Source: Sphingomonas sp. 32-66-10 (GTDB lineage Bacteria > Pseudomonadota > Alphaproteobacteria > Sphingomonadales > Sphingomonadaceae). From it: DNA of 46,878 nt. The position numbers and the translations under genes are program-made. The stretch lies in assembly GCA_002280565.1 (NCBI GenBank), contig NCEF01000009.1:1-46878 (forward strand). The letters run 5' to 3'. Within the stretch, counting starts at the first letter, position 1. Every line of letters begins with the position of its first letter. This document shows positions 19,402 through 35,665 of the stretch, in pieces. The notes beneath the pieces are model-generated. The model had not been told where the DNA came from. It saw only the letters and a program-made list of their open reading frames with translations, and did not search any database.

Positions 19402-20259
19402 TTACGCGTCGATCTGACGCTCGCCCTCGGCAGCGGTTTCCGGCTCGGTCGAGGCGGCCGGGGCTTCCGGCTCGGCCGCGACGGCAGGGGCCGGCTCGGC
19501 CGCAATCGGCTCAGCCAGCGCTGCTTCGACCGGCGGCACTTCGGCCGCGCCGAAATCGCCGCTGCTCATCTGCGCCTGGTTGTTGCCGCGGGTCGCCGCA
19601 ATGGCGACCGCTTCGCAGTACAGGCGGATCGCGCGGCTGGCGTCGTCATTCGCCGGAACCGGGAATGCGATGCCGTCGGGCGACACGTTCGAGTCGAGGA
19701 TCGCGACGACCGGGATGCCGAGGGTGTTGGCTTCCTTGATCGCCAGCTCTTCCTTGTTCGCGTCGATCACGAACATGATGTCGGGAACGCCGCCCATGTC
19801 GCGGATGCCGCCGAGCGACAGCTCGAGCTTGTCCTTCTCACGGGTCAGGTTCAGCACTTCCTTCTTGGTCAGGCCGTGCGTGTCACCCGACAGCTGCTCT
19901 TCCAGCGTCTTGAGGCGCTTGATCGAGTTGCTGATCGTCTTCCAGTTGGTGAGCATGCCGCCCAGCCAGCGATGGTTGACGAAATGCTGGTTCGACTTGC
20001 GCGCCGCCTCGGCAATCGCGTCCTGCGCCTGGCGCTTGGTGCCGACGAACAGCACCTTACCGCCCGAAGCGACGGTCGAGCTGATGAACTCGAGCGCACG
20101 TGCGAACAGCGGCACGGTCTGCGACAGGTCGATGATGTGAACGCCGTTGCGGTCGCCGAAGATATACGGCTTCATCTTCGGGTTCCAGCGATGGGTCTGG
20201 TGACCGAAGTGCGCGCCCGATTCGAGCAACTGCTGCATAGAGACGACAGGTGCCGCCAT
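19402..20259 (-). CDS. rpsB: 30S ribosomal protein S2
   Basis: The 285-residue product starts [20 protein letters not shown] then [15 protein letters not shown] and carries the S2 signatures [20 protein letters not shown] and [20 protein letters not shown]. After about residue 240 it has an Ala/Glu/Pro-rich tail, a common extension in alphaproteobacteria. The ATG at 20259 has AAGGA 9 nt upstream. The gap to tsf contains a short GC-rich hairpin (19342-19348 with 19369-19375) that might tune downstream expression. Confidence 0.97.
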
Positions 20260-20417: not shown

Positions 20418-20447
20418 TTGACAGCTGGAACGTTAATGGAACATAAA
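20418..20447 (+). promoter_or_regulatory. Candidate promoter of the small membrane protein gene
   Basis: A perfect -35 TTGACA (20418-20423) is followed 18 nt later by CATAAA (20442-20447), which matches four of six bases of TATAAT. Transcription would start near 20454, about 85 nt before the ATG at 20538. The spacer contains a LexA-type box. rpsB reads the other way from the same intergenic region. Confidence 0.5.
20428..20442 (+). promoter_or_regulatory. Candidate LexA (SOS) operator
   Basis: GAACGTTAATGGAAC is an exact match to the direct-repeat operator GAAC-N7-GAAC used by alphaproteobacterial LexA. It lies inside the -35/-10 spacer of the plus-strand promoter, where a bound repressor would block RNA polymerase. 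The recA operator in this same window (GAACAAGTGCAGAAC at 35651) has the same architecture. A chance match somewhere in 47 kb is possible; the placement is what makes it persuasive. Confidence 0.6.
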
Positions 20448-20537
20448 GGGTTCACACGGCGGACAGGGAACCTTGCCCGCGCTTAGGCGTCAGGAATCGT
20501 CAGGATTCCAGTCGCTTAGGGAGAATCCGGGAGGCCA

Positions 20538-20756
20538 ATGATGGTTGCTGTTCTTGCCACGCTGCTGTTCACCACGGCGTTCGCCGTGTCGATCTGGGCG
20601 ATGTTCACCACGATTGCACCGCGCCTAGACTATATGCGCGCCCTGCTGCGCGGCGACTTGGTGCCCGCGCTCGCCCCGGTTCAGGCGCCGCGCGTCCGCG
20701 CTACGCTGCGGGCGGCACCCCGGCAGATTTCGGCGCCGCTGCGGGCCGCGGCATAG
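20538..20756 (+). CDS. Small single-pass membrane protein, probably SOS-regulated
   Basis: A 72-residue protein of no family I can name. Residues 2-26 form one hydrophobic helix (VAVLATLLFTTAFAVSIWAM), followed by an arginine-rich, Pro/Ala-rich tail that should lie in the cytoplasm by the positive-inside rule. GGGAGG stands upstream; its spacing favours the second ATG at 20541, giving 71 residues. The promoter in front carries a LexA-type box. Its last 56 nt overlap the 3' end of pssA on the other strand. By analogy, small SOS-induced membrane proteins such as Caulobacter SidA block division, but nothing in the sequence proves that role here. Confidence 0.65.
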   Translation: MMVAVLATLLFTTAFAVSIWAMFTTIAPRLDYMRALLRGDLVPALAPVQAPRVRATLRAAPRQISAPLRAAA

Positions 20757-34499: not shown

Positions 34500-35570
34500 T
34501 CAGAGGTCGTCTTCCGCGTCGGGCCCGGTCATCATCTCCTCGGCGACCTTTTCCGTCCGGCTGCGGATGGCCGCCTCCAGCCGCGCGCAGACATCGGCAT
34601 TTTCCTTGAGGAACGTCTTGGCGTTTTCACGCCCCTGGCCGATGCGAATGCTGTCATAGCTGAACCAGGCGCCCGCCTTTTCGACCAGCCCGGCCTTCAC
34701 GCCGATATCGAGGATCTCGCCGATCTTCGAGATGCCCTGCCCGTACATGATGTCGAACTCGACCTGCTTGAACGGCGGCGCGACCTTGTTCTTCACCACC
34801 TTCACCCGGGTGGTGTTGCCGATGATATCGTCGCGATCCTTGATCTGCCCGGTGCGGCGGATGTCGAGTCGAACCGAGGCGTAGAATTTGAGCGCATTGC
34901 CGCCGGTCGTGGTCTCCGGATTACCGTACATCACCCCGATCTTCATGCGCAGCTGGTTGATGAAGATCACCATGCAGCGCGAACGGCTGATCGAGCCGGT
35001 CAGCTTGCGCAGCGACTGCGACATCAGGCGTGCCTGAAGGCCGACATGGCTGTCGCCCATCTCGCCCTCGATTTCAGCGCGCGGCACCAGCGCCGCCACC
35101 GAATCCACCACAAGCACATCGATCGCGTTGGAGCGAACCAGCGTATCGACGATTTCGAGCGCCTGTTCGCCCGTGTCGGGCTGCGACACGATCAGTTCGT
35201 CAATGTTGACACCTAGCTTCTTGGCATAGACCGGATCGAGCGCGTGCTCGGCATCGACAAAGGCCGCGGTTCCGCCGCCCTTTTGCGCTTCCGCGATGAC
35301 GTGCAGCGCCAGCGTGGTCTTGCCCGAGCTTTCCGGCCCATAAACCTCGATCACGCGGCCGCGCGGCAGGCCGCCGACGCCCAGCGCGATGTCCAGCCCA
35401 AGCGAGCCGGTCGAGATCGCCTCGACCTGCATCGTCTCCTTGGAGCCGAGCTTCATCGCGCTGCCCTTGCCGAACGCGCGATCGATCTGTGCCAGCGCCG
35501 CATCGAGCGCCTTCTGCTTATCCGGAGAAATGCCCATCTTGCCTTCGATCACCTTGAGGGAAGCTGCCAT
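34500..35570 (-). CDS. recA: Recombinase RecA
   Basis: Forms the filament on single-stranded DNA that drives strand exchange and triggers LexA self-cleavage. The 356-residue protein has Walker [10 protein letters not shown] (78-86), the [20 protein letters not shown] core, [20 protein letters not shown] with loop L1, [20 protein letters not shown] with loop L2, and an acidic C-tail ending DAEDDL. GGAGA lies 6 nt before the ATG at 35570. A LexA-type box overlaps its promoter. Upstream on the same strand lie a stand-alone receiver and cckA. Confidence 0.98.
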
Positions 35571-35627: not shown

Positions 35628-35665
35628 GATGTACAGCATCTGTTCCGAAGGAACAAGTGCAGAAC
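35628..35665 (-). promoter_or_regulatory. recA promoter with LexA (SOS) operator
   Basis: On the minus strand GTTCTGCACTTGTTC (35665-35651) is an exact GTTC-N7-GTTC operator, the alphaproteobacterial LexA box. Its last six bases are the -35 TTGTTC (35656-35651); 17 nt later comes TACATC (35633-35628) as the -10. Transcription would start about 50 nt before the recA ATG. The overlap of operator and -35 fits simple repression lifted by DNA damage. Confidence 0.82.

Follow-up and report, generated by a model that had tools for sequence, protein, structure and literature searches.

The window analysed here, a stretch of 46,878 nucleotides from Sphingomonas sp. 32-66-10, carries a small gene on the plus strand that is flanked by two genes on the minus strand, rpsB (start at 20259) and pssA. 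The following features were read at this locus.

20418 to 20423, plus strand: -35 element TTGACA, read in the window, with TTGAC kept across the genus.
20428 to 20442, plus strand: predicted LexA box GAAC-N7-GAAC (GAACGTTAATGGAAC), which fills the promoter spacer, is conserved and occurs also at recA and lexA.
20442 to 20447, plus strand: -10 element CATAAA, whose first base is the last base of the box.
20529 to 20534, plus strand: Shine-Dalgarno sequence GGGAGG; AG-rich sites precede the start in relatives, where the frames were picked partly on this feature.
20541 to 20756, plus strand: the small gene, coding for a predicted single-helix membrane protein of 71 aa with an Arg-rich tail and a C-terminal RAAA.
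20745 to 20753, plus strand: codons for the C-terminal AAA, a proposed ssrA-like degradation signal.

An earlier note on this DNA had described both promoter elements, the box in their spacer, the GGGAGG and a frame of 71-72 residues, and each of them lies where that note placed it. The spacer between TTGACA and CATAAA measures 18 bp, or 17 bp if ACATAA is taken as the -10 element. The open reading frame (20538-20756) begins with two successive ATG codons, at 20538 (72 codons) and at 20541 (71 codons), the second being the more likely start, since both the relatives and the spacing from the Shine-Dalgarno sequence favour it. The start of rpsB, on the opposite strand, is 169 bp from the box. 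At most loci where the neighbours are visible, rpsB, pssA or both adjoin the gene; inside the flank that was fetched, G170 and some other genomes showed only one of the two or neither. The small gene is not part of a cell-division gene cluster.

The number of boxes in the window is uninformative by itself, since two exact matches to GAAC-N7-GAAC were seen and 1.24 are expected from shuffled sequence, close to the single chance match that had been estimated beforehand. The only other exact box, at 35651-35665, lies upstream of recA (ORF 34500-35570, minus strand), so that both boxes of the window occupy promoters where LexA would be expected to act; the box at recA serves as a natural positive control. 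The motif is also found at lexA itself, where GTTC-N7-GTTC shortly precedes the gene in all 15 genomes examined, and GTTCN7GTTC is the consensus given for Caulobacter LexA in PMC12700426. Across the source genome, the extended word GAAC-N7-GAACAT occurs five times and its reversed control not at all.

Conservation within the genus was assessed in stretches of about 1 kb upstream of rpsB, taken from the window and from 80 further genomes, which were selected from 156 others with an rpsB match. Of the 81 stretches, 75 contain an exact box within 600 bp upstream of rpsB, and the count is the same within 400 bp. Within this shorter distance, other spacings of the GAAC pair (N3-N13) reach 0-7 of 81 as against 75 at N7, the reversed word CAAG-N7-CAAG is absent (0/81) and the opposite orientation, GTTC-N7-GTTC, occurs once, while GTTC pairs at N6 and N8 occur in up to 9/81. 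When the stretches are taken at full length, TTGAC followed by 4-6 bases and an exact box is present in 78/81. The remaining three comprise G117 and G188, each with one mismatch (GTAC-N7-GAAC), and G170, whose gene and box are some 3 kb away from rpsB. In these 78 promoters ATA follows the box in 69 cases, and the seven bases between the two GAAC words are mostly loose. This arrangement of TTGAC, box and ATA is the footprint expected, on sequence grounds, of a repressor site set between the -35 and -10 elements. A scan of the GTDB collection with the clade alignment A3 returned at least 80 loci, nearly all titled Sphingomonas, with S. melonis, S. paucimobilis, S. sanguinis, S. aquatilis and S. 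yabuuchiae among the named carriers. Among the 80 matches listed, 79 have an exact box within 400 bp and the 80th ends at a contig edge; these loci overlap with the genus genome set, and the two counts are not independent. One genome of the same genus, G518, gave no match to profile A2.

Two further features of the promoter bear on the gene that it serves. In three genomes (G044, G164 and G056), extra DNA separates rpsB from the box; the small gene still stands behind the box in G044 and G056, and the G164 stretch is too short to reach the position of the gene. The box is thus displaced from rpsB together with the small gene, which argues that it belongs to the latter. In addition, 14 of the 81 genus genomes carry another exact box 29-32 bp upstream of the first (G150, G050, G040, G139, G193, G178, G126, G140, G022, G002, G053, G132, G164 and G056), and four more (G020, G114, G183 and G169) have a second box 23-24 bp away. 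A single box is carried by about 97% of the SOS promoters of Caulobacter (PMC12700426). The doubled boxes suggest that leaky expression of the gene is costly.

Beyond the genus, a profile built from 36 genus proteins (A1) matched 57 of 199 family genomes and 35 of 96 genera, false matches included. Most genomes gave no profile match (142/199 in the family and 148-151/196 in the order), and all 48 matched genomes of the 196 in the order search belong to the Sphingomonas family. Batches of 27, 15 and 7 loci make up a set of 49 matches outside the genus, and an exact box lies upstream in 46 of them. The exceptions are L163 (G495), L202 (G313) and L211 (G362), of which L202 is not beside rpsB and has neither box nor Ala-Ala end; it is probably a false match, yet it was counted as a miss. 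This set does not include the order-search matches without a locus identifier, the weakly matching genomes G334, G395, G391, G407, G446, G467 and G360, or the frames L196-L200, which are about 430-460 aa long and without a box. By eye, L196-L200 appear to be the ends of one larger, transporter-like protein. On contig 1 of G380, two profile matches near rpsB (2190346 and 2190950) lie about 600 bp apart, possibly as tandem copies of the small gene.

The region upstream of rpsB was also inspected blind in 40 genomes, selected from 109 without a profile match at the rpsB locus (two of the 40, G391 and G360, have a weak A1 match elsewhere in the genome). A box was found in 36 of the 40, each time with a frame of 52-111 codons and a hydrophobic start behind it, whereas G337, G406, G335 and G352 have no exact box. 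At least part of the silence of the profiles is therefore due to sequence drift. An hhalign comparison of 18 blind-set proteins with the first group gave a probability of 93% (E 3e-7) over 40 columns, mostly within the hydrophobic helix. Box and gene together were counted by hand in about 57 genus labels. The earlier note had proposed the joint conservation of box and frame across sphingomonads as a check, and both are kept, in the genus as in further genera. A spread beyond the family was considered and rejected, since a search of 240 class genomes with profile A2 returned only the source genome, G010 and a partial match in G227 without a box, and 50 rpsB loci from the class gave nothing comparable. 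An origin as a plasmid or phage gene was likewise rejected, as tblastn with the window protein found nothing at E 0.01 among 72,556 plasmid and 50,697 phage records, a search in which only close relatives are detectable.

The earlier note had proposed that DNA damage switches the gene on through LexA. This is very strongly supported by the conserved box, promoter and frame, as judged from sequence: the three are conserved together, the box lies in the promoter and stays with the gene, and the same motif is found at lexA (15/15) and at recA (in the window only). Binding by LexA and induction by damage are thus very likely. Against this stand 3 of the 49 profile matches and 4 of the 40 blind rpsB loci without an exact box, as well as the lack of a profile match in G518.

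The encoded protein drifts fast in sequence and keeps its N-terminal hydrophobic helix, its Arg-rich tail and its Ala-Ala end. In ten pairs of close relatives dN/dS ranges from 0.18 to 0.37, which indicates purifying selection and hence a real protein. AlphaFold predicts one continuous helix over residues 2-36, with block-mean pLDDT values of 86-98 for residues 1-40, followed by a disordered tail of low confidence. Residues 2-23 are uncharged in 59 of 75 aligned proteins. From residue 27 onwards the mean net charge is +6.5 over 70 rows, some of them duplicated, and the same rows contain 598 Arg against 27 Lys. The single hydrophobic helix and arginine-rich tail noted earlier in the window protein are thus borne out by the structure prediction and by the composition of its relatives. 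Such a charge places the tail, by the positive-inside rule, probably in the cytoplasm. The proteins measure 70-81 aa among the genus picks and about 70-110 aa overall; the frames were picked automatically, scored on a hydrophobic start, Shine-Dalgarno sequence and ATG, so that single picks may err (L350, L365 and L377 are doubtful). The window protein has no Pfam or NCBIfam match at E up to 1. A scan of 34 family members gave no match to Pfam or PADLOC and one weak match to NCBIfam (E 0.0016), the model being that of phage LysB.

The tail drifts in sequence, but its C-terminus is kept. An Ala-Ala ending is found in 72 of the 79 automatic genus picks, the other seven ending in Val-Ala, and in 32 of the 36 blind-set picks from other genera. 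The count is 74/75 among the aligned proteins, a figure biased by the inclusion of 18 of the 36 blind picks that were chosen by eye (alignment A4, 18/18 Ala-Ala), so that 72/79 and 32/36 are the fairer values. As background, 13 of 448 ORFs of at least 200 aa in the fetched loci, spurious frames included, end in the same way. ClpX reads a cytoplasmic Ala-Ala end on tagged proteins, and IAA or LAA terminates the tmRNA tag of these bacteria in 8/8 cases, for instance ANDNEALAIAA. Since the end of the tail would be cytoplasmic and resembles the tmRNA tag, a built-in degradation signal is proposed, which is plausible from the sequences. Such an end could also be read by several proteases, or could have another role.

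Small SOS-induced proteins that stop division are known from several bacteria, and the proposed product is of this already known kind, a LexA-controlled small membrane inhibitor. The small membrane proteins SidA, DidA and YneA inhibit division by acting on FtsW, FtsI or FtsN (PMC4211646, PMC13396833). SidA of Caulobacter crescentus, an inner membrane protein of 29 aa that interacts with FtsW and FtsN (PMC4211646), shares with the present protein the alphaproteobacterial LexA control and the short inner-membrane form. It is set apart by size, in a comparison by description, from the present protein, which has 71 aa in the window and 70-81 aa among the genus picks, and the gene was not assigned as SidA. 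In Caulobacter, sidA may lie a few genes away from the rpsB cluster. DidA, also from C. crescentus, is similarly a small transmembrane, damage-induced protein that blocks division, yet its expression depends on DriD and not on SOS, and its binding partner is FtsN (PMC4211646), whereas the Sphingomonas-family gene carries a LexA box. YneA of Bacillus is an SOS-induced division inhibitor that is rapidly degraded (PMC13396833). It differs in its extracellular LysM domain, while the tail is predicted here to be cytoplasmic and the window protein has no known domain; neither this protein nor the 34 family members matched LysM in Pfam or NCBIfam, as an N-terminal helix joined to LysM would have. SosA of Staphylococcus is another SOS-induced membrane protein inhibiting division (PMC6851548). 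In Enterobacteria this part is played by SulA, an SOS-induced FtsZ inhibitor made short-lived by Lon degradation (PMC13396833).

SulA is not a membrane protein; DivS of Corynebacterium is a further SOS-induced membrane protein. Among 99 family genomes searched for SulA (PF03846), none gave a match above the cut-off, nor did the window protein match it. One sub-threshold match (E 3.6e-4) was seen in G393, contig 20 (L388), in an open frame of 259 aa that is possibly ImuA-like.

Taken together, these properties suggest that the gene is a member of a Sphingomonas-family SOS regulon and that its product is a division inhibitor timed by proteolysis, a reading to which we assign a probability of about 0.5. 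In the undamaged cell, LexA bound to the box between the -35 and -10 elements would bar RNA polymerase. Cleavage of LexA, triggered by RecA, would then open the promoter and yield a protein of about 70-110 residues, which would enter the membrane by its one N-terminal helix, with the Arg-rich tail most likely in the cytoplasm. The helix may dock on the late divisome (FtsW/FtsI/FtsN) and restrain septum synthesis; the target is suggested by the analogy with SidA, DidA and YneA, and septum synthesis as the process would also fit the missing SulA. After repair LexA would return, ClpXP or another tail-reading protease would clear the protein by means of its Ala-Ala end and division would resume.

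Inhibition of division, raised as a candidate role in the earlier note, appears to be the best explanation for the role of the gene, although the chances that it is correct are only about even. The sometimes doubled boxes, the mostly uncharged residues 2-23, the fast drift and the degron-like end would all fit an inhibitor. On the other side, the divisome is named as target by analogy with SidA, DidA, YneA and SosA, and the helix drifts strongly across genera, which is unexpected for a partner of the conserved FtsW. The gap between the 29 aa of SidA and the 70-110 aa with a long tail found here, and the position of the gene outside any cell-division cluster, also speak against a role in division.

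The product may instead be a small SOS-induced membrane protein that serves another envelope process as adaptor or regulator (of a protease, a transporter, secretion or a lipid enzyme), for instance a partner of PssA. This would fit the adjacency of rpsB, pssA or both at most visible loci and a tail that might attach to acidic lipids or to a partner in the cytosol. The gene nevertheless has its own SOS promoter, and neighbours are missing from the fetched flank in G170 and others, so that inheritance is a likelier reason for this position than function, and such a role is unlikely, if worth keeping in mind. A membrane toxin or growth brake similar to TisB, which would perturb or depolarise the inner membrane and induce dormancy with the divisome untouched, could equally be described as a short hydrophobic peptide behind a LexA promoter, sometimes with two boxes, and drifting fast. 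The helix of TisB, however, is charged and amphipathic, unlike the mostly uncharged residues 2-23 of the present family, and a pore needs neither a conserved Arg-rich tail nor an Ala-Ala end, which makes a toxin rather improbable. Control of rpsB (ribosomal protein S2) by the box, in place of the small gene, is suggested by its nearby start on the other strand and is very improbable: TTGAC and ATAAA are oriented toward the small gene, the box lies away from rpsB in G044, G164, G056 and G170, with the small gene wherever the sequence is readable, and among 50 class rpsB loci a divergent box preceded by TTGAC was found in none and one without TTGAC in two. That the motif is a chance match and the frame meaningless, as some 1.2 exact boxes per window expected from shuffles might allow, is refuted by the conservation, the spacing and reversed-word controls and the purifying selection, and its probability is negligible.

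If the proposed inhibitor is real, its novelty would lie in how nearly universal it is within one family, by position and promoter, and in an end that resembles the tmRNA tag. A search of the open-licence literature returned no description of the small gene, nor any account of a division stop after damage in alphaproteobacteria beyond Caulobacter. The locus would provide a candidate damage checkpoint gene for an entire family of bacteria that live in the environment and in association with plants, one that can be traced by its position divergent from rpsB and by its promoter although drift defeats ordinary protein searches. A bolder and quite unlikely extension is that it represents a new class of SOS checkpoint, near-universal in Sphingomonadaceae, in which a helix inhibitor bears an end like that of the tmRNA tag and the ssrA protease sets the length of the arrest. 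Tagged proteins from stalled ribosomes would then saturate this protease, the inhibitor would persist and the arrest would track total damage. The locus also makes it possible to test directly if an SOS checkpoint is timed by a native end of the ssrA type, and the one- and two-box promoters form a natural series of LexA promoters for comparison.

Two other boxes of the source genome, each at position 1500 of its locus, are of note. On contig 29 (L194), the box directly precedes a frame that by eye resembles a radical-SAM protein of DNA modification or repair, probably a further SOS gene. On contig 16 (L192), frames resembling, again by eye, a deaminase and a DNA methyltransferase lie nearby, and the surroundings may be a mobile island that the SOS response controls.
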